From: a virus
IMG/VR virus record: IMGVR_UViG_3300031884_001575
Coordinates: 1-23,720 of that record
Direction: 5' to 3' (one strand)
Length of the DNA: 23,720 nt
The position numbers and the translations under genes were made by a program. Under the pieces are notes generated by a model. It had not been told where the DNA came from, did no database searches, and saw only the letters and a program-made list of their open reading frames with translations. This document shows positions 1 to 8,524 of the stretch, in pieces (the stretch's first letter is position 1; each line of letters begins with the position of its first letter).

Positions 1-2
1 TC

Positions 3-659
3 CGTTTTGTTCGAATCGATTCAGATCTGCCTTGGTTCAACACGCAAACCAGTGACACAGCTTCTGACGATGACCTCTCCGCCGTAAGCATTCCTGATCA
101 CCTGCTGCCAAACCTGCAGCGCATTGAGTTCGCCTTCCGCCCGGACAAACACCAGCTCTGGTTTGTCAGCCATGACCGCAAAGACAATATGGGACCGCAA
201 GCACTTGAGAAATTTTTCCAGGCGCTCTTTGACAAGGTATATCTCGCTGGTAAGTCTTCAGAGGTAGAGGTCACTGCGCTGCCCGATGTTGAAAGCCTGG
301 AACAGATGCTCAAGCTCCCGAAGCTTGACAGACTAACCATCCATCTCAAGCGCCCAAATGCCGATGATTTTGATGAAATCGAAGCGAGGTTGCTGAAGAA
401 GCTAGAAATCCAAAATGCTCGGCAGCAGGAAACCATCTTGATTGCCAAGAGCGGGGAAACAATTACGCCAGACGCTGATACTTTGGCGCTTGCCTCGGTA
501 GCAGCCAGGAATGGAAGTGTTTCCGTGGTCGGCAAGAACGCCAACGGCATGCGCGTGGAAGAATCCACCCAGAAGCGGCCATTGCAGATTTCCGCTTTGG
601 TGGACTCGGAGGTGGAAACCTCTCTGGACGTCCTTAAACGCATGATGTTTAGCCGCTAG
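3..659 (+). CDS. DUF4747-like protein, 3' part only
   Basis: The reading frame is open from base 3 to the TAG at 657-659, so the true start lies before the window; the internal Met codon at 189 is unlikely to be the start because the upstream codons also look coding. The visible part is about 218 residues. The pattern of a 'PDKHQLWFVS' strand, a 'LTIHLKRPNADDFDEIEARLL' helix region, 'NARQQETI' and a late 'NGMRVEEST' block matches my memory of the DUF4747 family, whose biochemical role I do not know. There are no membrane segments. The membrane-protein gene that follows starts within 20 bases, so the two are probably co-transcribed. The family call is by recognition only. Confidence 0.6.
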   Translation, partial: RFVRIDSDLPWFNTQTSDTASDDDLSAVSIPDHLLPNLQRIEFAFRPDKHQLWFVSHDRKDNMGPQALEKFFQALFDKVYLAGKSSEVEVTALPDVESLEQMLKLPKLDRLTIHLKRPNADDFDEIEARLLKKLEIQNARQQETILIAKSGETITPDADTLALASVAARNGSVSVVGKNANGMRVEESTQKRPLQISALVDSEVETSLDVLKRMMFSR

Positions 660-676
660 CGTTGTACCATCACGCC

Positions 677-1243
677 ATGTACAAGGGTGTGGCCAATATC
701 TTTGCTAAGTACTGGCAGGCATACGGTGGACTGCGGGCGCTCCTATGCTCGCCTTATCTGCACATTGCCGTATTGGTACTACTTCCGTTGACGTATCACA
801 CCTGGTCAAAGTGCGACTGGTGGAATGACCCAATGGCAGCATTGCCCAACCTTCTGGGCTTTACGCTGGCCGGGCTTGCTATGTCGATTGGATTTGGTGA
901 TGACAAATTTCGGGCACTACTTGCCGAGCCTGGTGTTGATCTCTCGAAACCCTCTGACTATGTGGTTATGAGCTCCACATTCGTCCACTTCATCGTGATT
1001 CAGCTTTTCGCGTTGGTCTATTCGGTAGCTGCAAAGGGGTTGTGGTTCTACGCTGAATGGGTGGACCCCATTCGCGATGTGCTACCGGTCCTGAATCAGA
1101 TTGCTGGTGGTATTGGGTATGGTCTTTTTTTGTATGCCCTCATGTCAGTCTTGGCAGCTACCATGGCTGTATTTCGTATCGCATCAATGTATGAGGCTTA
1201 CCAGCGCCACTTGGCCAATCAGCCCAAAACAGACTCAAAATAA
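677..1243 (+). CDS. Four-helix membrane protein, unknown function
   Basis: This is a 188-residue protein if the ATG at 677 is used; a TTG at 662 would add five residues, and neither start has a clear ribosome binding site. Hydrophobic stretches near residues 25-43, 54-72, 101-121 and 145-168 suggest four membrane helices, with an acidic 'GFGDDKFRALLAEPG' loop between helices 2 and 3 and a hydrophilic C-terminus. The gene begins 17 bases after the DUF4747-like gene and probably shares its transcript. I do not recognise the family. A soluble partner next to a small multi-pass protein resembles some two-gene abortive-infection systems, but that is inference from layout alone. Confidence 0.65.
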   Translation: MYKGVANIFAKYWQAYGGLRALLCSPYLHIAVLVLLPLTYHTWSKCDWWNDPMAALPNLLGFTLAGLAMSIGFGDDKFRALLAEPGVDLSKPSDYVVMSSTFVHFIVIQLFALVYSVAAKGLWFYAEWVDPIRDVLPVLNQIAGGIGYGLFLYALMSVLAATMAVFRIASMYEAYQRHLANQPKTDSK

Positions 1244-1415
1244 CTAGATTGATGCGGAGATTGATTGTCGCACTGCACCCCGCGCCCGTGCCCAGCCACT
1301 AGGCAATGCATGCAGACCGGGGTAACGCTTGGCAGTCATAGGTTGGCCAAATTCACCCATTTGGGGGAGGGCTCCGTAGTGCTCCTGATGTTACTGTCAC
1401 ACCCTACAACAGGGA

Positions 1416-1689
1416 GTGAATGTGGCCAGAAGAGGTAAAACCAGTCCACTGGAAGACGTGTTCGAGTTGGTGTGATGTTCCCATGGTGGGTGGGTGTGGT
1501 GGCCGCCATCGGCCTTTACATCGGTCTCCATGCTTATGCGAGCCAGGTCGGCGGGCCCATCACCCCAGGCGCGCAGTTGGGGGCATCGGTGTCGCAAGCC
1601 ATCTTTCGGACCGTCGCCAGCATCTTCCAATACATCCTGCCGGCGATCTGCCTGGCGGCCGCTGCGGCATCGGCTTGGAAGACATCGCA
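1416..1689 (+). pseudogene. Restriction-endonuclease-like gene, N-terminal fragment with frameshift
   Basis: A GTG at 1416 begins a frame reading 'VNVARRGKTSPLEDVFELV' and then a TGA at 1473. The continuation is in another frame from about 1472: 'MFPWWVGVVAAIGLYIGLHAY', followed by two hydrophobic stretches that end near 'AAASAWK'. Read together these resemble the N-terminus (charged leader, PWWVGV and two membrane helices) of Mrr-like restriction endonucleases that carry membrane segments. A frameshift at about 1470 separates the two parts, and the endonuclease domain is absent. Homology stops near 1685, where integrase sequence begins in yet another frame. I read this as a dead fragment left by a deletion or insertion. 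Confidence 0.55.
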
Positions 1690-1992
1690 GCGCAAGACCC
1701 TGGCTCTGGCGTCACCAGCAGCAGCTCGGCCGCGTCGCTGGATGGAATGACCTTGCACGGCCTGCGCCGGTCATTCAAGAGCCTGATCGAGTGGCTAGAG
1801 GTGCCCGTTGGGGTGGTGGCACAGATTCAAGGGCACAAGCCCAGCGCGACCGCTGAAAAGCATTACACAGTGCGACCACTTGAACTGCTGGCGCTGCACC
1901 ATAAAAAGATTGAAGCGTGGATGCTGGAGCAGGCCGGGATTGTGTTCGACGCCAAAGCCACGCCCGGTGCGCTGCGCGTGGTGGCTGGATAG
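1690..1992 (+). pseudogene. Tyrosine integrase, C-terminal fragment
   Basis: The frame ending at the TAG at 1990-1992 encodes the end of a phage-type tyrosine recombinase. From the Met at 1747 it reads 'MTLHGLRRSF' (the His-x-x-Arg box), then 'QIQGHKP' (second His) and 'EKHYTVRPLELL' (candidate nucleophilic Tyr), then a C-terminal helix 'IEAWMLEQAG'. The first catalytic Arg, the core-binding domain and the arm-binding domain are missing, so it cannot be active alone. The frame stays open upstream to 1420, but that portion is an out-of-frame reading of the endonuclease-like fragment. The 5' limit given is approximate. The scar probably records an earlier integration or an excision by deletion next to this element. 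Confidence 0.7.
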
Positions 1993-2072
1993 CGCCCTGT
2001 GGATAACTTTCACTGCGTTATGCGTCTGTCAGATGCCTATTTTTCAGGCAATGGATGAGGCTACGTAAGCCC

Positions 2073-2101
2073 TTGATTGCATTGAATAATTCCTCTATGA
2101 T
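2073..2101 (+). promoter_or_regulatory. Sigma70-type promoter upstream of the Cro-like gene
   Basis: TTGATT at 2073-2078 and TATGAT at 2096-2101 are separated by exactly 17 bases, a good match to the sigma70 consensus. The predicted start near 2108 gives a leader of about 118 bases before the HTH gene at 2226. Surrounding DNA is A+T rich (2070-2215). A second possible -10 (TACAAT, about 2191-2196) has a poorer -35. This is sequence-based only. Confidence 0.55.
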
Positions 2102-2225
2102 TACAAAGTTATCCTTTTTATCTACTTTATACAACGGGCGTTATGTTAAGTTATGAGTACGAAACTGCATTGTACGTAATCAGAAAGGAATACAATCTCA
2201 GCCTGTACCGACCGATGGACAACAC

Positions 2226-2447
2226 ATGACACCTGAAGAATTTACAAGCGCCCTGGCCGCGCTGGGCTGGAAGCAATCGGACTTTTGCCGCAAGTCCGGA
2301 GTTACCAAGCAAACGCCCTCACGCTGGGCAAACGGTCAATCCCCCATCCCGCTTTGGGTGGGTGCCTACCTTGGAGCCATGCAAGACATGGCCGCCCTGC
2401 ACGCAAAATACATCGCGCCAGCCAAGGATGGCAGTGCCAAAGCGTAA
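2226..2447 (+). CDS. Small Cro/XRE-like HTH regulator
   Basis: The product has 73 residues and is almost entirely one helix-turn-helix domain: 'FTSALAALGWKQSDFCRKSGVTKQTPSRWANGQ' carries the helix, turn and recognition helix of the XRE/Cro class, followed by 'PIPLWVGAYLGAMQDMAALH'. Such single-domain proteins act as repressors or Cro-like switches in phages and genomic islands. The ATG at 2226 has no strong Shine-Dalgarno sequence. The next small gene overlaps its 3' end. It is probably expressed from the promoter at 2073-2101, and the A+T-rich 120-base leader is where an operator would be expected, although I see no clear dyad. Function as a regulator of this element is inference from the fold and position. 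Confidence 0.8.
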   Translation: MTPEEFTSALAALGWKQSDFCRKSGVTKQTPSRWANGQSPIPLWVGAYLGAMQDMAALHAKYIAPAKDGSAKA

Positions 2448-2682
2448 AGGAAACAGCGAGCTGCGCGCATTGATTGCCGAGGCGTATCAGGTCATAGGCG
2501 TGCTGGCGCAGGACGCCGGACGCTTTGATGATGTTTGGGTAATCAAGGCCATGGACAACCTTGCAGCCGGGCGCCTGATGCATTCGGACGTGCTGCCATT
2601 CCCATGCAAGAGAAGCGACGGCGCGCAACCAGTGGCAAACCATGGCTTTGCAGACATGGCACAGTGCGACCCTGCCAAATAG
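2428..2682 (+). CDS. Small unknown phage-type protein
   Basis: This is an 84-residue frame from the ATG at 2428 (GTG at 2434 is an alternative), overlapping the end of the HTH gene by 20 bases, which suggests translational coupling. It begins with a basic patch, 'MAVPKRKGN', and then 'ELRALIAEAYQVIGVLAQDAG', a likely amphipathic helix. I do not recognise the family and see no catalytic motif or membrane segment. Its tail ends 40 bases before the convergent brnA gene. Because it sits directly behind a repressor-like gene, a partner or accessory early role is possible but unsupported. Confidence 0.6.
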   Translation: MAVPKRKGNSELRALIAEAYQVIGVLAQDAGRFDDVWVIKAMDNLAAGRLMHSDVLPFPCKRSDGAQPVANHGFADMAQCDPAK

Positions 2683-2722
2683 AGGCACCGTGAAGCCCTG
2701 CCCGCCGACCCGGCGAGTAGTG

Positions 2723-2989
2723 CTACACCTTACCGGTGGCCACTGCCTGGCGCAAAAGTGCATTTACCTTTGTTTGCCAACCCTGGCCCATGGCTCGTAG
2801 TGCCACCAGAACATCGGCATCCACGCGCATGGTCACGGTCTCCTTGGGGTGAGCCACGCGGGGCCGTCCCATGGGCTTCTTGGGCAGCAATGCCACCAGT
2901 TCAGGCGGCAGCGCCTCGCGGGCCGGCCGTGCCTTATCAAACCACTCTTGGCTCAGTTCTGGGGGGTCAAGCTGTACGGTTTTTTTCAT
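2723..2989 (-). CDS. brnA: BrnA antitoxin
   Basis: The 88-residue protein starts at the ATG complementary to 2987-2989, preceded by GGAGAAACGTT, a good ribosome binding site; a longer in-frame extension to 3145 lies inside brnT and is rejected. The C-terminal half, with 'VTMRVDADVLVALRAMGQGWQTKVNALLRQAVA', is the ribbon-helix-helix-type DNA-binding region of the BrnA family. The N-terminal half (residues 1-45, acidic and Pro-rich) would neutralise the toxin. BrnA normally binds BrnT and represses their shared promoter. The start lies 23 bases inside the end of brnT, in the usual toxin-first order of brnTA operons. High confidence from motif plus partner. Confidence 0.88.
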   Translation of the reverse strand: MKKTVQLDPPELSQEWFDKARPAREALPPELVALLPKKPMGRPRVAHPKETVTMRVDADVLVALRAMGQGWQTKVNALLRQAVATGKV

Positions 2990-3242
2990 AACGTTTCTCC
3001 TCTCGTGGATTCGCCTTGCGAAAACTGATAACCCGGATGCCGCCCTGAATGGCCGCGAACACCACCACGTGCAACCGTTCACCGATAGGCCCCACCGCTT
3101 CAAAACGGCGCTCAGGGTAGGCCTTGCGCGTGTCCTCGACCACAATGGCGGTATCCCAATCGAAGCCGTTCACCAAGGCAAAAGGCAACTGACGTTCGTC
3201 GGCATTCTTCTGGGACTTGATAGGGTCGAACTCGATACGCAT
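2967..3242 (-). CDS. brnT: BrnT toxin, ribonuclease family
   Basis: The protein has 91 residues, typical for BrnT. It shows the opening 'IEFDPIKSQKNADERQLPF', the middle 'YPERRFEAVGPIGERLHVVVF' and the end 'IRVISFRKANPREEKRYE', the conserved landmarks of this RelE-like RNase fold. Known members cleave RNA and are neutralised by BrnA. The start at 3242 lies only five bases after a TACAAT -10 box, so the message may be leaderless. It is transcribed away from the antisense-RNA leader, with promoters whose -35 boxes are 7 bases apart. A stabilising or anti-phage role for the element is inference. Confidence 0.88.
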   Translation of the reverse strand: MRIEFDPIKSQKNADERQLPFALVNGFDWDTAIVVEDTRKAYPERRFEAVGPIGERLHVVVFAAIQGGIRVISFRKANPREEKRYEKNRTA

Positions 3243-3247
3243 GACTT

Positions 3248-3276
3248 ATTGTATTTGCGCTAAGTGGACGTTGCAA
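3248..3276 (-). promoter_or_regulatory. brnTA promoter
   Basis: On the minus strand TTGCAA (3276-3271) and TACAAT (3253-3248) are 17 bases apart, a near-consensus sigma70 promoter. The -10 ends five bases before the brnT ATG, so transcription should begin close to the start codon itself. An inverted repeat GTATTTGC (3251-3258) / GCAAATAC (3286-3293) spans both this promoter and the start of the divergent one, and a direct repeat TTGCAAAT occurs at 3271-3278 and 3284-3291. These are candidate binding sites for the BrnT-BrnA complex. Confidence 0.7.
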
Positions 3277-3283
3277 ATTGTTT

Positions 3284-3312
3284 TTGCAAATACGTTTAGT
3301 TGGTGCTACAGT
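3284..3312 (+). promoter_or_regulatory. Divergent promoter for the leader RNA and early operon
   Basis: TTGCAA (3284-3289) and TACAGT (3307-3312) have a 17-base spacer. The -35 box is one arm of the direct repeat TTGCAAAT shared with the brnTA promoter, so a protein bound there could affect both directions. Predicted transcription starts near 3319, immediately before the GCC-GAAA-GGC hairpin that opens the structured leader. Confidence 0.6.
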
Positions 3313-3318
3313 AGCGTC

Positions 3319-3487
3319 AAGCCGAAAGGCCCGGTGCTATCAACACCAAACAGTTAGCGGCAGACCTCCCCGTAAGTGAGGTTTTTTCACGTCCTGAATT
3401 TCTGGTTTTGGGTGTGGGGAGGGCCTACCCGCGAGGATGGCCGCACGTCTAACTGCGTGTTGATATACCCCACATCCATCCTGCTGG
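3319..3487 (+). ncRNA. C4/CI-like antisense RNA leader
   Basis: The leader starts with a GNRA-capped hairpin (GCC GAAA GGC, 3321-3330). Two short elements follow, TATCAACAC (3338-3346) and CAGTTAG (3351-3357). They are exactly complementary to GTGTTGATA (3457-3465) and CTAACTG (3449-3455). The same pair occurs again before the next gene: TATCAA (3490-3495) and CAGTTAG (3519-3525), the latter overlapping the TAGGAG ribosome binding site. Further stems are TGTGGGG/CCCCACA (3413-3419/3468-3474) and AGGATGG/CCATCCT (3434-3440/3476-3482). In phages P1/P7 (C4) and P4 (CI), a short RNA from the same transcript pairs with such sites to block translation or cause termination. Ends are approximate; the class assignment is from architecture. 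Confidence 0.62.
3363..3387 (+). terminator. Short hairpin followed by six T, possible conditional terminator
   Basis: GACCTC (3363-3368) can pair with GAGGTT (3378-3383) over a nine-base loop, and the run of T spans 3382-3387. It lies inside the structured leader between the upstream sites and the antisense element, where a premature terminator would fit the P4 CI style of control. The stem is only five or six pairs, so the strength is doubtful. Confidence 0.4.
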
Positions 3488-3536
3488 CCTATCAAGTCAA
3501 ACGGGTGGTTTTGAGTCTCAGTTAGGAGCCAATTCC

Positions 3537-3986
3537 ATGACCACGGTCACATCACCCACGCCCACCACGGGCATTCCCCCACACCCTGTTTCCAACATCC
3601 ATGCGGCTTCCGAGCCGAAAAAGGCTGATTTACCCAACACCACTGCGCCCAAAGCGGCAACCCCACGCGCAACAAGCGCAATCGAAACAGCCTTGCGCGC
3701 CATCCTGTCCGAGGTCACACCCGGATACCGGCCGTTCTTCAGCTCCGACAGCTACCTGCCGGCCCACCTGGTGGACGCCGCACGGGCCGCGCTCGCTGGC
3801 AACAGCACGGAAGCCCACCAACAGGCTCACAACGCATTGAGCACCGCAGCTTGGCACATTGCACGCGGCGAGGCACCGCAGGCCCTGGCAAGGCTGCGCA
3901 GAGCCCGCAGCCACATCATGGCCAGCATGGAAGCCCCCGGCACGCCGAAGCAAACAGGCGATTGCATGGAGGTGGCCCATGTCTGA
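3537..3986 (+). CDS. First gene of the early operon, unknown phage protein
   Basis: The protein has 149 residues. The ATG at 3537 has a TAGGAG ribosome binding site eight bases upstream, and that site overlaps the CAGTTAG target of the antisense leader. The N-terminal third is Pro/Thr/Ala-rich and low in structure ('PHPVSNIHAASEPKKADLPN'). The C-terminal part is predicted to be helical, with 'LPAHLVDAARAALAG' and 'ARLRRARSHIMASME'. I do not recognise a catalytic domain. Bases 3573-3650 align without gaps to 19676-19753 (about 60 of 78 identical) in the same frame. By analogy with P1 ant and P4 operons, it would be the first protein released when the leader RNA is relieved; this is inference. 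Confidence 0.7.
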   Translation: MTTVTSPTPTTGIPPHPVSNIHAASEPKKADLPNTTAPKAATPRATSAIETALRAILSEVTPGYRPFFSSDSYLPAHLVDAARAALAGNSTEAHQQAHNALSTAAWHIARGEAPQALARLRRARSHIMASMEAPGTPKQTGDCMEVAHV

Positions 3987-4245
3987 AGCACTGACCATTG
4001 AAATCGGCACGGGCGTTACCGTCCACTTTGCCACTGCTGGCGATGCGCTGAACCATGCGCAGTACCTTGGAATTCTTCTGTCTGACCTGCTGGAAGTGCT
4101 GACGGCAACCGACGCTGACTACGAGGTCATGCAGTCAGCATTGATGATCGCGCGGGACATGGCGACGAAAATCAGGCGTGCGGTCGACTGCGTCGATAGC
4201 GCGAAGTCGGCCAGTCGCAAGATTGCGGAGGTGACCCATGGCTGA
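3979..4245 (+). CDS. Small unknown phage protein
   Basis: The 88-residue protein starts at the ATG at 3979, overlapping the previous gene by eight bases, with GGAGGTGGCC just upstream as ribosome binding site. It is mostly helical, acidic in the middle ('LTATDADYEVMQSALMIARDMATKIRRAVD') and has no motif I recognise. Overlaps on both sides (the next gene starts at 4238) show it is one cistron of a tightly packed early operon. Confidence 0.7.
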   Translation: MSEALTIEIGTGVTVHFATAGDALNHAQYLGILLSDLLEVLTATDADYEVMQSALMIARDMATKIRRAVDCVDSAKSASRKIAEVTHG

Positions 4246-4798
4246 TACCACCGCCAGCACTGCGCTGCGCCTCGTCCCTGCACCTGTCACCACCACCGAA
4301 GTAGTTGTTGAGCATCCGTTCACAGTCTGCATTCGCCCTCATGGCTGTGACTTCGCTGAGTACCAAGGTTCACGGGCACAGCTCGAAGCTGAGGGCGTCA
4401 TTCCTGCAGGGACTGAATGGCCAGAAGGCCAGCAGTCCGTTAGCTGGGAGCAGGGCCTGCTCTCGTTCTCTTTGAAGCGCACCCGTCCAGAAGGCATGAA
4501 GGGTCCCATGAAGCTCTGGATTGCTGGCGACTACTGGAACCTGCGCTGGGAACGCAAAGTTATGCCAGGTCGTGCCGCACGGGCAATTGCGGAGAAGTCG
4601 ATGGAGTTGGCGAAAGTAATTTACGACGAGTCCCCCGAAGGTCGGCGCGCCTATAGCGCCCGCTTCGAGCTTTACTGGGCAGCCTATAAAGACAAGGCAT
4701 TTCAAGCCTTCAAGAACACCATCATCCCCGAACGCAAGAAGCCTGGCCGCCCCGCCAAGTCCAACACCCCCGAACAATCCCAGGGAGCATCAAAATGA
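4238..4798 (+). CDS. Unknown phage protein, 186 residues
   Basis: The ATG at 4238 overlaps the previous stop by eight bases and has a GGAGGTG ribosome binding site. The protein has a beta-rich N-terminal half (residues about 20-110, containing 'FTVCIRPHGCDFAEYQG' and 'LWIAGDYWNLRWERK'), then helices to residue 165. It ends in a basic tail, 'ERKKPGRPAKSNTPE', which includes a GRPAK AT-hook-like sequence. That tail suggests contact with nucleic acid, but no family is recognised. It overlaps the following gene by ATGA. Confidence 0.7.
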   Translation: MADTTASTALRLVPAPVTTTEVVVEHPFTVCIRPHGCDFAEYQGSRAQLEAEGVIPAGTEWPEGQQSVSWEQGLLSFSLKRTRPEGMKGPMKLWIAGDYWNLRWERKVMPGRAARAIAEKSMELAKVIYDESPEGRRAYSARFELYWAAYKDKAFQAFKNTIIPERKKPGRPAKSNTPEQSQGASK

Positions 4799-5130
4799 CC
4801 GAGCGTGTGGACATGTGCCCCGCTGACGGCGCTTTCACCTGCAACGGCGAGGGCCTGGCGATGACCGGCCGAGGACATGCTCGGATGTATTCAGCATTGG
4901 ACGGTATCCAAACGCTCACGGCGCTACTGGTACGGCGTGAGCTGGATAGGGACTACGAAGGCGCGGACATGAGCCAAAGCACGGCCCTGGGCCTGCTTAA
5001 CGCCATGGGGTGCTGTGCGGAGCTGGCGCACAACCTGCTGAATGGTGACGGCTGCCAATCCCGAGCCATTCGCACCAGCGCCCCCGATTACGCGGAGCTG
5101 GCGCGCCTGGTGCTGGGCAGGCCGGGCTGA
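4795..5130 (+). CDS. Small unknown phage protein with several Cys
   Basis: The 111-residue product starts at an ATGA overlap with the previous gene and has a GGGAGCA upstream site. It contains 'MCPADGAFTCNGEG' near the N-terminus and 'MGCCAELAHNLLNGDGC' later, so five Cys in total, but not in a regular zinc-binding spacing. The middle is helical. I do not recognise it. It directly precedes the initiator-like gene with a four-base gap and is probably co-translated with it. Confidence 0.65.
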   Translation: MTERVDMCPADGAFTCNGEGLAMTGRGHARMYSALDGIQTLTALLVRRELDRDYEGADMSQSTALGLLNAMGCCAELAHNLLNGDGCQSRAIRTSAPDYAELARLVLGRPG

Positions 5131-5134
5131 CGCC

Positions 5135-5935
5135 ATGGCAAACGGACGCAACCCAAAGCGCCGGGGCCGCGACGAAACACGCGACTCTGGCGGGTTCGTT
5201 GCGTTGCCGTGGTCAGTGCTGGACTGTCCGGCCTACGCCCAGTTGTCCCACCCGGCCCGGTCACTGCTGCTGGAGTTCGCGCGCCAGTACGTGCGGGACA
5301 ACAACGGCCGGCTGCTGGCGTCTTATGCCTACCTGCTGCCGCGCGGATGGTGTAGCAAGGACGTTATCACCCGAGCCAAGCGGGAGCTGATCGCGGCAGG
5401 CTTTGTTCATGAAACCGTGATGGGGCACAGGCCGAACAAGGCCGCTTGGTATGCGGTGACCTGGCGCACCTTGGACAAGATCCCCGGCTACGACTTCGGG
5501 GCCGCTGAGGCATTCCAACGCGGGGCATATCGGCAGGGGGTGCCAATCGCCCGTGCTGCTGCTGGACCGGCTGGCGGTATGGGTCGTGCGCCTCTTGGCC
5601 CGTATCACGGGCAAGACAAAAACACAACCCTTAGCCCGTCTCACGGGCCAAGGGGCTCCATTACTGGCCCGTCTGACGGGCTAGAGGGTGCGACCATTGG
5701 CCCGGGAGACGGGCCAATAGAGGCTACTTTTTGCACCTTCCTTAGCCCGTCAGACGGGCACCATCTAGATAACCATCTACTGCACGTTGAATTGGAGGTG
5801 CCCGCAAGCAAGGTAACCGGTACTGCGAATGTCGGGATTCCGATTACGGCAAGGCAGCGGGACAACGCCGCCGGAGTAAGCCGACCTGACGATGCGAGTC
5901 GGGCTGGCGCCGCGTGCGCTAGCATGAGTATTTGA
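5135..5935 (+). CDS. Winged-helix replication-initiator-like protein 1, with internal iterons
   Basis: The 266-residue protein starts at the ATG at 5135. Residues 20-115 look like a winged-helix domain: 'LSHPARSLLLEFARQYV', 'NGRLLASYAYLLPRG', 'SKDVITRAKRELIAAGFV' and a beta wing ending in 'AAWYAVTWRTLD'. The same plan is found in phage replication proteins of the lambda O or RepA-like helix-turn-helix type. From residue about 150 the protein becomes low-complexity (repeated 'SPSDGP'), because this DNA holds five palindromic repeats. Lambda O likewise carries its origin iterons inside the gene, so this is a good candidate for origin plus origin-binding protein. The role is inferred, and the second such gene at 10922 shares the N-terminal plan. 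Confidence 0.68.
   Translation: MANGRNPKRRGRDETRDSGGFVALPWSVLDCPAYAQLSHPARSLLLEFARQYVRDNNGRLLASYAYLLPRGWCSKDVITRAKRELIAAGFVHETVMGHRPNKAAWYAVTWRTLDKIPGYDFGAAEAFQRGAYRQGVPIARAAAGPAGGMGRAPLGPYHGQDKNTTLSPSHGPRGSITGPSDGLEGATIGPGDGPIEATFCTFLSPSDGHHLDNHLLHVELEVPASKVTGTANVGIPITARQRDNAAGVSRPDDASRAGAACASMSI
5598..5759 (+). repeat. Iteron array 1: five 15-bp palindromes inside the initiator-like gene
   Basis: The repeats have the form GCCCG-(5 bases)-CGGGC and lie at 5598-5612, 5634-5648, 5667-5681, 5700-5714 and 5745-5759. Start-to-start distances are 36, 33, 33 and 45 bases. Centres vary (TATCA, TCTCA, TCTGA, GGAGA, TCAGA), while the arms are constant, and flanks tend to be TT(A/G) before and (C/T)A after. 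A constant arm with a variable centre points to a dimeric protein binding site. The array is the best candidate for a replication origin or operator in this half of the element. Confidence 0.75.
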
Positions 5936-6039
5936 TAAATGGTTTTGCCACCAGCTAGTTCCGCTTCGAAACCGGGACGAAAAGCCAAGCCCCCGCTGGC
6001 CTGCTGGTGGTTCCTTATGCGGGGATGCACGGGGGTGCA

Positions 6040-6972
6040 ATGTTTGAACCGAAAACCCTGAGCGTTCCAGAGCTTGCAGAGCGATGGAAGATGACGACAA
6101 GGCAAGTACTCGAAGCCGCTGCGCAACTGCGCATTCACCTGCTGTTTGATTTTGACGGCTTGGTGATTGATGACACCGGCGAAAAGTTGATGCAATACGA
6201 TTTGAATAACAAGCGTGAGCACGCCCGCCTGACGGAATTTATTGAAAGTGCCGAAGCGAAGTTCAAACGGCGCATTGCCGGTCTATTGTCACCGTGGGAA
6301 AGTTTGGCTGACGATGAAGCGGTGGAACTTCAGATCCAGGTGAGGAGTGCTCAATCTAAGATTCAGGATTTGCAAGATGTGTTTGATGTAGTGACTAGGG
6401 AGCGTTTGAAATGGCGGTATCGTGGTCCACTGATGGCGTCGCCTGAGACTGTTGACGAACTCAAGCGGATTGGATCCGCTAGGCACCCATTTCGTGCATA
6501 CAAGCCAGACGGTCCGTTTTCCTTGCAAGTGGCTGATGGCATGCCAGCCTTGGATGGACCGATTGTCCGACTGGAGGCCGCGGGCACCAAGTTGAAAGAG
6601 TGGCTGGAGATTGCAGACATGGTGGCGCTCATGGCTGACGTGAAGGCGATTGAAGCCGCTGCCAAGCCCCAGCAATTAGCGCCTGCCGCCAACACCGAGC
6701 CAGATCCGATCACCATTAGTTCAGACGTGCCTACTGTCGACGACAAAGCGAATACACCATGGTGGCAGGAAAAATACGACATTATGGAGATGGCGAAGAA
6801 CAAGGGCGCCAGCCTTAAGGCAAAAGGGTCAAACCCTTCAAATGCCGCAATTTCTAAGGAAATTGCAAATCACATAGCCAATGCCGAAAGGAGCAAGGGT
6901 TCAGTGTTCAGCGCGCCTAATCACGACACCATACGCGGCCTTCTCACGGGATGGAGATGGAAGGCTGAATAG
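6040..6972 (+). CDS. HTH-containing protein of unknown role, 310 residues
   Basis: I chose the ATG at 6040 because GGGGGTG lies immediately upstream; an in-frame Met at 6007 is less likely. Residues 5-30 ('LSVPELAERWKMTTRQVLEAAAQLRIHLLF') look like a MerR/excisionase-type HTH followed by a strand. The centre, about 60-130, is a charged helical region, likely coiled coil. The C-terminus from 225 ('PWWQEKYDIMEMAKNKGASL' through 'HDTIRGLLTGWRWK') resembles a second small helical DNA-binding module. Proteins of this plan are common but uncharacterised in proteobacterial islands. The gene is visibly less GC-rich than its neighbours. It may act as a regulator or nucleoid-type binder, but no function can be assigned. 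Confidence 0.65.
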   Translation: MFEPKTLSVPELAERWKMTTRQVLEAAAQLRIHLLFDFDGLVIDDTGEKLMQYDLNNKREHARLTEFIESAEAKFKRRIAGLLSPWESLADDEAVELQIQVRSAQSKIQDLQDVFDVVTRERLKWRYRGPLMASPETVDELKRIGSARHPFRAYKPDGPFSLQVADGMPALDGPIVRLEAAGTKLKEWLEIADMVALMADVKAIEAAAKPQQLAPAANTEPDPITISSDVPTVDDKANTPWWQEKYDIMEMAKNKGASLKAKGSNPSNAAISKEIANHIANAERSKGSVFSAPNHDTIRGLLTGWRWKAE

Positions 6973-7012
6973 TTGGGCGCGCCCAGGGCACGCCCAATTG
7001 GGCGATTGGGCT
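6973..7012. promoter_or_regulatory. Overlapping palindromes built from TTGGGC half-sites
   Basis: Directly after the previous stop codon lie a 12-bp palindrome TGGGCGCGCCCA (6974-6985) and a perfect 14-bp palindrome CGCCCAATTGGGCG (6991-7004), then another half-site ATTGGGC (7005-7011). TTGGGCG at 6973-6979 can also pair with CGCCCAA at 6991-6997 as an RNA stem. There is no T run, so an operator for the downstream AlpA-like gene is at least as likely as a terminator. Confidence 0.45.
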
Positions 7013-7155
7013 GATACGCGAAAACCCCTTGAAACCCGCATGAACATTGGGTTTTAGACTGTCTCACTGACAACCACGGCAACGCATACGCCCCGAGAAA
7101 CTTGTTCCAACCCTGCTAGGTTAGTGTTGTCAGTTGCAGGGATGGAGCAAGCTCA

Positions 7156-7452
7156 ATGCCCAAGCGTTCCCAGCCCACACAGGCTGATCACAGACCTGAA
7201 GCCCGCAAAGCCGCCCACACAGGCTTCAACTTCGACGACCTGCCAGATTCGGGCTACATGCGTCAACCTCAAGTCTTGGAGGTTGTTCCATTTTCTCCCG
7301 CCACGATGTGGAGAAAAATCAAGAAGGGTGAGTTCGTCTCGCCGGTTCGCCTCTCTGACCGCGTCACCGCCTTTCGGGTTGGCGATGTCCGCGCTTGGCT
7401 TAAAGCCCAGGCAGAAGCATGCGGCGTGGCAGTCTCGGTGGAGGCTGAATAA
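7156..7452 (+). CDS. AlpA-family regulator 1
   Basis: The product has 98 residues. After a basic leader, residues 34-84 match the AlpA/excisionase-like winged-HTH family: 'MRQPQVLEVVPFSPATMWRKIKKGEF' and 'VRLSDRVTAFRVGDVRAWLKAQ'. AlpA proteins activate integrase or excision functions of P4-like and CP4-like elements, or act as late activators in satellites. An ATG at 7258 would give a minimal domain, but the upstream part is kept because the frame is open with normal composition. The start has GGGATGGAGC upstream. The gene opens the replication operon, behind a palindromic region at 6973-7012 that could be its operator. Confidence 0.8.
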   Translation: MPKRSQPTQADHRPEARKAAHTGFNFDDLPDSGYMRQPQVLEVVPFSPATMWRKIKKGEFVSPVRLSDRVTAFRVGDVRAWLKAQAEACGVAVSVEAE

Positions 7453-7454
7453 CC

Positions 7455-7736
7455 ATGCAAGTATTCAAGCCGCCAAATGAAAAAGCCGTCAACGCCCTGG
7501 CAGGCAATTCGACGGCTCCCAAAAGTACACAGCAGTTGGATTCTATCCAATCGAATAACTGCGTGCAATCTCGTGGTGTGCGCCGCATCGCGATTGCCGT
7601 CATTCACCTTGTGGTGCATGGCCTGCGCTACATCACCAAACTTACCGCCAACCTGATCCGCCTGAAGAGCCTGGGCCTGGCGTTGTGGATCACTGCCTAC
7701 GAAATGGCTCCTGACTGCAAAGGGGGCCGCGAGTGA
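7455..7736 (+). CDS. Small unknown protein between alpA-like and parB-like genes
   Basis: The protein has 93 residues, starting two bases after the AlpA-like stop and overlapping the ParB-domain gene by four bases. The N-terminal half is polar; residues 43-85 ('RRIAIAVIHLVVHGLRYITKLTANLIRLKSLGLALWITAYEM') are amphipathic to hydrophobic and could lie on a membrane, though this does not look like a clean transmembrane helix. No family is recognised. Tight spacing on both sides supports a real coding sequence. Confidence 0.6.
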   Translation: MQVFKPPNEKAVNALAGNSTAPKSTQQLDSIQSNNCVQSRGVRRIAIAVIHLVVHGLRYITKLTANLIRLKSLGLALWITAYEMAPDCKGGRE

Positions 7737-8524
7737 AATATTCACAGCACCCACTGAGCTCAGCCTTCCCCGCAATGAGCGCGGAAGAATTCACGGCACT
7801 CAAGGACTCCATTGGCATCAATGGCGTCCTGAACCCCATCACTATTTTCGAAGACATGGTGATTGACGGTTGGCACCGGTACACCGCCGCGACCGAATCC
7901 GGCGTTGACTGCCCTTCGGTGGTTATGGATGACTCCATAGACCCGATTGACTTCGTGAAGGCACAGAACGAGAACCGGCGCCACCTGACCGCATCGCAAC
8001 GTGCAGCGGCGATTGTGAGCATCTACCAATGGGTGCCAAATGGCGCAAATCAGCATGCCAAGGGAGGGGTGGAACCAGGTTCCTACCCTCCAAAAACCAA
8101 TGCCGAATTGGCCTCTATTGCAAAGGTCAGTACCAAGACAATCCAGCAGGCGAAAGTGGCACAAAAGGCCGGCCTGACTGAGGCCGTGAAGGACGGCGCA
8201 ATCACTGTGAAGGAGGCCGCGCAGATTGCATCCGGCAAGTCACTGGTCAAGTCTCATGCAGCCCCAGAAGACGATGGCCCGGACGCCGACGAGCTCGCAG
8301 CCAACGCCATGGCTGCAGCGGAAGACGCCAAGCACCTGGCTGGTTTGCTGGATGCCGATGACAAGCTGGCATTCGCGGTGGCAGAGGTCAAACGCCTGAA
8401 CGCACTTAATGCGAACCTTCAGTTGCGCGTCAACGGCCTGATGAACGAGAAGAACGAAGCCGTTAGGGCTGCCAAGGCCATGGAACGACAAGTGCAGCGC
8501 CTGCGCAAGGAGGCTTCGAAATGA
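7733..8524 (+). CDS. ParB-like nuclease/N-terminal-domain protein
   Basis: The 263-residue protein begins with a GTG at 7733. Residues 1-65 carry the ParB/Srx fold signature ('GVLNPITIF' and 'VIDGWHRYTAA'), followed by the ParB-typical 'AQNENRRHLTASQRAAAI' at about 77-94. An HTH-like block follows near 112-150 ('NAELASIAKVSTKTIQQAKV'), then an Ala/Asp-rich linker and a C-terminal coiled coil (225-263). Phage proteins of this type act in replication, gene regulation or DNA modification rather than in classical partition. No ParA is seen next to it. It lies in one operon with the helicase, which starts by ATGA overlap at 8521. Confidence 0.82.
   Translation: MKYSQHPLSSAFPAMSAEEFTALKDSIGINGVLNPITIFEDMVIDGWHRYTAATESGVDCPSVVMDDSIDPIDFVKAQNENRRHLTASQRAAAIVSIYQWVPNGANQHAKGGVEPGSYPPKTNAELASIAKVSTKTIQQAKVAQKAGLTEAVKDGAITVKEAAQIASGKSLVKSHAAPEDDGPDADELAANAMAAAEDAKHLAGLLDADDKLAFAVAEVKRLNALNANLQLRVNGLMNEKNEAVRAAKAMERQVQRLRKEASK

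Follow-up and report, generated by a model that had tools for sequence, protein, structure and literature searches.

The leader in front of the early operon of this virus is very probably a C4/IsrK-type antisense-RNA switch acting on translation of the coupled genes behind it. The leader occupies positions 3316-3537, on the + strand, of a virus record of 23,720 bases, the whole of which was analysed and is called the window below. This reading rests on the complementary elements of the leader, on two predicted folds of nearly equal energy and on covariation in relatives. Judged by sequence comparison, the leader is one of a group of phage-type antisense switches unnamed in Rfam 15, and similar leaders, some of them partial, are found in 40 of 399 genomes of one family.

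Elements of the leader and the surrounding genes

The order of the elements is a1 b1, a terminator-like hairpin, b' a', then a2 b2 (Table 1). An earlier note on this DNA had described two upstream elements as exactly complementary to two downstream ones, and re-reading the positions showed this to be correct to the base. Its further observation that both elements recur before the first gene was confirmed in position, with TATCAA at 3490 and with CAGTTAG at 3519 running onto the ribosome binding site. The a2 site is shorter than a1 (6 versus 9 nt), and most of b2 is predicted to be looped out by a hairpin that takes in the Shine-Dalgarno sequence. The T-run hairpin noticed before b' does form in folding. 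It was not listed by a simple terminator scan, though folding forms it, probably because the scan permits loops of 3-8; the predicted 3' end of a short, IsrK-like RNA is expected at this hairpin. No sigma-70-like promoter was found on the + strand by a simple promoter scan.

No family was recognised for ORF1, the putative direct target, in Pfam, PHROGs or NCBIfam, and used as a query it gave no relative in viral contigs or phages. A segment near its C-terminus could be aligned to a profile made from small first proteins in 16 of the 20 related loci, at 16.9 bits compared with 11.4 for the best of 1000 shuffles. Since ORF1 to ORF4 overlap end to start, a block on ORF1 could silence the operon. 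Translational coupling of the four genes is plausible from this layout, and coupling has been reported for orf45-anrP in the IsrK system (PMC4825925, in part). An antirepressor was not recognised among ORF1-ORF5 with Pfam. Later genes of the window encode a Toprim protein and a helicase whose best NCBIfam match, RadD, is far below the cut-off.

Upstream, on the other strand and facing away from the leader, are genes for a BrnT toxin and a BrnA antitoxin (2723-3300). Between these genes and the leader lie a promoter-like site in divergent orientation (minus strand, 3277-3248) and an imperfect inverted repeat (3244-3258/3286-3300) containing two TTGCAAAT copies, so that an antitoxin operator could overlap the leader promoter. 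The ORF at 1420-1992 has no Pfam or NCBIfam match; its C-terminal part (about 1747-1992) resembles, by eye, the end of a tyrosine integrase, and it is possibly a truncated integrase.

Table 1. Features of the leader and of the operon behind it (window coordinates)
Feature	Position	Strand	Basis or remark
Hairpin GGTG-loop-CACC displaying a1	3333-3347	+	Centroid fold and forced core fold
a1, TATCAACAC	3338-3346	+	Exact complement of a'
b1, CAGTTAG	3351-3357	+	Exact complement of b'
Terminator-like hairpin, 9-nt loop and T6	3362-3387	+	Sequence, predicted fold; same place in relatives
C4-type antisense core	3409-3478	+	Predicted fold; covariation in 22 leaders
Closing stem of core, 11 bp	3409-3419/3468-3478	+	Predicted fold
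Core hairpin 1	3422-3442	+	Predicted fold
Core hairpin 2	3443-3460	+	Predicted fold
b', CTAACTG	3449-3455	+	6 of 7 bases in hairpin 2 loop
a', GTGTTGATA	3457-3465	+	Last five bases unpaired in core fold
Seven unpaired nt in core	3461-3467	+	Predicted fold
a2, TATCAA, second target	3490-3495	+
b2, CAGTTAG	3519-3525	+	Overlaps Shine-Dalgarno AGGAG 3524-3528
ORF1 start codon ATG	3537	+
ORF1	3537-3986	+	149 aa, putative direct target
ORF2	3979-4245	+	Start overlaps ORF1 stop
ORF3	4238-4798	+	Start overlaps ORF2 stop
ORF4	4795-5130	+	Start overlaps ORF3 stop

Predicted folds of the leader

RNA folding, proposed in the earlier note as a check, gave a C4-like fold at 3409-3478 with a closing stem and two hairpins. 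The order of its parts, including the seven unpaired positions, is that of the Rfam C4 consensus as viewed in the alignment of L246, a C4-type leader described below. Folded alone, the stretch 3405-3482 reached a minimum free energy of -35.1 (z -2.62), with 2 of 200 shuffles as good; for the whole leader the advantage over shuffled sequence was slight (z -1.31), 22 of 200 doing equally well. The minimum for the window leader is the long hairpin a1b1:b'a' at -80.4 kcal/mol, and the core fold follows at -77.4, 3 kcal/mol away. The same order is seen in the related leader L370 (-108.4 and -104.5 kcal/mol, a gap of 3.9) and is reversed in the more distant L384, where the core fold is the minimum (-112.0 versus -107.0 kcal/mol, a gap of 5.0).

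That the window leader reaches its energy minimum as the a1b1:b'a' hairpin would suit a purely cis-acting attenuator, in which the leader would alternate between this hairpin, with the ribosome binding site not paired with b', and b'a':a2b2, with the site closed, and no separate antisense RNA would be made. We regard this as improbable, as a forced b':b2 pairing lies about 13 kcal/mol above the leader minimum and the core forms a C4-type fold of its own, covarying in the closing stem and hairpin 2, which would be superfluous for a simple two-state leader. C4 RNAs have moreover been reported as processed (PMC5320573, in part).

For an antisense switch, cofolding of a short RNA carrying a1 b1 with the core gave a gain of 4.2 kcal/mol. 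The free core cofolded with its target region gave no gain (+0.7 kcal/mol) in a method that cannot model loop-loop contacts. Duplex energies between cores and targets were set aside: cognate combinations were better on average with mixed ranks (the window was first for the upstream and eighth for the downstream site), probably because common stable pairing swamps the words.

Chance complementarity and two relatives

The collinear word score observed for the three segments was equalled in none of 5000 mononucleotide shuffles. In a looser search over the whole window, at least one chance match arose in 13 of 60 dinucleotide-shuffled windows (+ strand); further loose matches in the real sequence lie near 2379 and in the stretch at about 5600-5760 on both strands. 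These loose matches, together with the unexceptional fold of the whole leader, are what could be said for chance complementarity or a generic GC-rich leader structure, an explanation that we find hardly credible given that a and b are replaced consistently in L370 and L384 and that the words are conserved in 19 of 22 leaders.

The L370 leader came from a blastn search with the window leader as query against L246 and L327-L387, matching at 63.6% over 261 bp with E 1.6e-16. L359 was the one other match at E<=1 and denotes the same place as L370 (which is also numbered L388). L384 is more distant, with a local score of 32 versus a best of 28 among 2000 shuffles, and its core has a closing stem, two hairpins and a single-stranded segment in the predicted fold. 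The letters of a and b in L370 differ from those of the window consistently in all three places. For b1 the letters are CAGTTAG in the window, CGATAAG in L370 and AGATCAG in L384. Each b' pairs with its own b1 at 7 of 7 positions and with its own b2 at 7, 7 and 6 of 7, respectively, and combining b' or the b sites of the window with those of L370 or L384 leaves 3-4 of 7 positions paired. The earlier note had proposed covariation in relatives as a check, and had named complementarity lost without compensation as what would speak against a switch. The relatives examined show the opposite: in L370 the letters of a and b are replaced and all complementarities are retained. Because the letters change while the pairing stays, the complementarity is real, and the arrangement at 3316-3537 is, as far as sequence can tell, confirmed.

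Other routes to relatives gave less. Scans for exact b'a' word pairs returned at least 119 stretches in viral contigs and at least 120 in genome contigs. Among 250 records checked, nine loci besides the window's own copy had loose arrangements; six of the nine were inspected and look, by eye, like coding sequence. As query, ORF3 gave no relative in scans of genome contigs, plasmids or phages, its L370 homologue gave no match in the viral scan, and window DNA gave no match with phages (3250-7200) or plasmids (1-7800).

Covariation in a group of 22 leaders

The 40 of 399 genomes mentioned above were found with the L370 leader as DNA query at E<=1e-3, some in part only. We aligned 22 leaders by sequence alone with MAFFT, namely 19 further loci, L370 (as L388), L384 and the window. 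The upstream pairing is kept in 88.4% of cells, the downstream pairing in 90.9% and the core pairing in 97.7%, compared with about 33-57% for slid control pairings. These counts are lowered because MAFFT sets b' out of register in L395, L397 and L398. The covariation score of each of the three pairings was reached by 0 of 500 shuffles. Core covariation is seen in the closing stem and hairpin 2. For the downstream pairing, the number of double-change pairs was reached in 4 of 500 shuffles and that of pair types in 1 of 500; the upstream pairing is less extreme (34 and 15 of 500, respectively). In this alignment, 7 of 10 closing-stem columns and 6 of 8 a2 columns are paired in the row of the window, and the closing stem is fully paired in the window's own fold. 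The motif GGTGC...CACC around a1 is found in most related leaders of the alignment.

In 19 of the 22 leaders the a and b words are found letter for letter at all three sites, one of the 19 (L392) being doubtful since its b word sits behind the Shine-Dalgarno sequence; L393, L399 and L407 fail the word test at the exact length of 5. The cut-off of a C4-clan or isrK model of Rfam 15 was reached by none of the 20 loci L388-L407. In 3 of these 20 loci (L405, L394 and L388) an int-alpA RNA is found no more than 1.5 kb from the leader.

Rfam families and C4-type leaders

The covariance-model search for Rfam C4 proposed in the earlier note was negative: neither C4 (RF01695) nor isrK (RF01394) nor c4-a1b1 (RF03163) has a match at 3200-3600, even at E<=10, and the leader is therefore not a member of RF01695 as modelled. 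sRNA-Xcc1 (RF02221) has no match in the window at E<=10. At the Rfam cut-offs the only match in the whole window is int-alpA (5948-6024, 49.1 bits), which overlaps the start of a GTG ORF at 6007.

L246 was reached through the helicase gene (57% identity). It shares the six-element layout with different letters and matches Rfam C4 at 68.5 bits, isrK at 50.5 (cut-off 50) and c4-a1b1 at 30.3 (below the cut-off of 46.7). Helicase relatives are mostly without a leader; of the loci to which the word detector was applied, L246 (with its copy L250) alone was convincing, and other word matches at helicase loci were dismissed by eye as repeats or as missing the layout. In a sample of one family, Rfam C4 was present in 63 of 294 genomes. 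Some genomes have at least 14 Rfam C4 matches, and two C4-type leaders lie near each other in L332 (360-519 and 1029-1191) and in L381 (1328-1540 and 3657-3840).

Thirty-one Rfam-type C4 leaders (30 fetched plus L246) and the window made up a comparison set of 32. An automatic count found two collinear words of at least 5 nt common to the antisense and to both target sites, upstream and downstream, in 26 of the 32, and in 120 of 992 mismatched combinations. The window antisense fits 1 of the 31 other leaders, and none with a word of at least 6, and none of the 31 other antisense segments fits the window. Twenty-four b words and 12 a words were counted among the 26 leaders, some of the words in this automatic count (GGGTT among them) being conserved stem letters and not a or b.

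We also built models of our own, all with rough E-values. A leader model from 30 Rfam-type C4 leaders, window excluded (R2), ranks 3332-3483 first in the whole window at 13.7 bits with a weak E of 0.022. A second leader model (R3), made from 28 matches including L384 with the window excluded, likewise places the window leader first (15.2 bits, E 0.025). With the core-only model (R1), the window core was not significant (8.5 bits, E 3.6, rank 9). When the 28 matches were aligned to R2, in an alignment fitted to the structure, pairing was kept in 96.6% of cells, and for 30 of 37 pairs there is a sequence with both bases changed. R2 gives E<=0.1 in 4 of the 20 loci L388-L407.

The family of ORF3 has no Pfam, PHROGs or NCBIfam match, and the AlphaFold model of ORF3 is weak (pLDDT 69, pTM 0.42). 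Relatives were found in 10 of 399 genomes (11 places) and in 7 viral loci. ORF3 homologues stand behind a C4-type leader in 6 of the 7 viral loci (R2, E<=4e-5), five of them also by Rfam C4; L383 has no leader by R2. The genome places with an ORF3 relative have a leader at 3 of 11 (L378 and L379 by R2, L370 by blastn), and L369 and L371-L377 gave no leader match at E<=0.2 with R3. L380 (L350) also has an ORF3 relative, but this locus was chosen for its C4. It is possible that the ORF3 family is a marker gene for C4-type leaders. In L384 the first gene is an ORF3 homologue, and the second has Rha (Phage_pRha) and KilAC (ANT) antirepressor domains; the target of C4 in P1 is the kind of gene seen second in L384 (PMC12197685, in part).

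A possible link with sRNA-Xcc1

With relaxed thresholds, sRNA-Xcc1 (cut-off 53) matched L394 at 33.2 bits (E 2.8e-4) and L384 at 31.5 bits (E 6.7e-4). The match of L384 to c4-2, a C4-clan family, was no better than chance (E 1.1), and L398 matched neither family; L394 and L398 also match nadA weakly (E about 0.01). Nine of 20 related leader cores lie under sub-threshold sRNA-Xcc1 matches (31.8-43.0 bits, cut-off 53), as do three more leader places of the 40-genome set, of which 20 genomes were scanned, and further sub-threshold matches occur in G521 and G324. At the same loose limit 2 of 14 control genomes matched, none above the cut-off.

At E<=1e-7, sRNA-Xcc1 was found in 4 of 299 genomes, in all four over the cut-off (L410-L413). 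In each of the four, a hairpin holding an upstream a site is followed by a further hairpin with a T-run, then by the core and a start codon. Exact a and b words are present on both sides in L411, L412 and L413, and L410 has a only. A closing stem with two hairpins is the predicted fold of L410, L411 and L413, but not of L412; the motif AGTCTC-b2-AGGAGC, common to the window group, is present in L411 and L413. In shuffle tests of word length, 92, 58, 2 and 36 of 2000 shuffles did as well as the four loci, respectively. As these values are only mildly unusual for three of them, the likeness rests on position and layout.

In Rfam, sRNA-Xcc1 stands without a clan. It has been described as an sRNA with many predicted targets (PMC2996969, in part), and has been placed upstream of symE in integron cassettes, with a link to symE suggested (PMC12444791, in part). 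In Xylella, C4, isrK and sRNA-Xcc1 are annotated separately and yet close together (PMC12189769, in part). We did not find a link between sRNA-Xcc1 and C4 stated in the accessible text of the literature searched, most subscription papers, including the 2011 sRNA-Xcc1 paper, being outside it.

The unnamed leader group may include sRNA-Xcc1. We put forward, as a tentative idea somewhat short of an even chance, that the window group, C4 and sRNA-Xcc1 form a single class of phage antisense switch. In this view sRNA-Xcc1, hitherto described as a free small RNA of integrons and genomic islands, would be the antisense module, and its loop and single-stranded segment would pair with the beginning of the following gene. 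An orphaned copy would pair instead with this leader in incoming phages and so serve as an immunity RNA that can be transferred. This would offer a testable mechanism for an RNA that so far has, in the accessible literature, target predictions and a suggested symE link.

Proposed mechanism

We propose that the transcript would begin at a promoter upstream of 3316 and would either stop at the terminator-like hairpin, giving a short RNA with a1 b1, or read through the antisense core into ORF1. The core, which may be excised as a small RNA, would pair through a' and b' with a2 and b2 and hide the ribosome binding site of ORF1; the overlapping genes would pass this block on, and the early operon would be turned down. 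The upstream a1 b1 would be a competing target, which in cis would form one long hairpin with the core; carried by the short RNA, it could titrate the core, so turning translation on. Such a switch may serve in immunity, and since the a and b words vary while their complementarity stays, the specificity of immunity might be readable from sequence.

The core could act instead as CI RNA does in phage P4, pairing with the upstream copy to cause premature termination at 3362-3387 and not a block of translation. The terminator-like hairpin with its T6 is directly behind b1, and target copies flank the antisense as seqA and seqC do in P4 (PMC4825925, in part). We nevertheless consider this unlikely, as b2 extends into the Shine-Dalgarno sequence in the window, in L370 and in L384, which suggests translation over termination. 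Of the C4/CI-type antisense switch with duplicated a and b sites that the earlier note had put forward, the C4 side agrees with fold, layout and covariation in relatives.

Comparison with known systems

The leader resembles C4 of P1 and P7 (RF01695) in the closing stem, the two hairpins, b' in a loop, a largely unpaired a' and targets at a ribosome binding site, and differs in letters too divergent for the Rfam model. C4 controls an antirepressor, which was not recognised in ORF1-ORF5 of the window with Pfam but is present in the related L384. Processing by RNase P to about 77 nt, with a GGW start, is reported as a C4 feature in work on C4-like sRNAs of Acinetobacter (PMC5320573, in part); the closing stem of the window begins T-GGG. 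Sites named a1 and b1 are described by Rfam as C4 targets in c4-a1b1 (RF03163), a family without a match in the window; c4 and c4-a1b1 are both listed in PMC2864571 (in part). Likened by description, P4 CI RNA with seqA and seqC also has its antisense between two target copies, and its outcome in P4 is termination (PMC4825925, in part). sRNA-Xcc1 is like the related leaders in its upstream a, T-run hairpin, core and start codon, the window itself being unmatched.

The upstream a1 b1 with the terminator-like hairpin resembles IsrK (RF01394) of the Salmonella prophage Gifsy-1, a system that the earlier note had not named. RF01394 has no match in the window. IsrK is a short RNA with hairpins and a terminator, and its read-through mRNA adds a complementary segment; sequence and predicted folds of the window suggest a comparable order, with a terminator-like hairpin. 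Two folds of nearly equal energy are reported for IsrK, at -85.66 and -84.21 (PMC4825925, in part), and predicted for the window. Activation in trans has been reported for IsrK (PMC4825925, in part). The switch that we propose would combine the two systems, with an antisense core that blocks the ribosome binding site, as in C4, and a short upstream RNA that titrates the core, as in IsrK.
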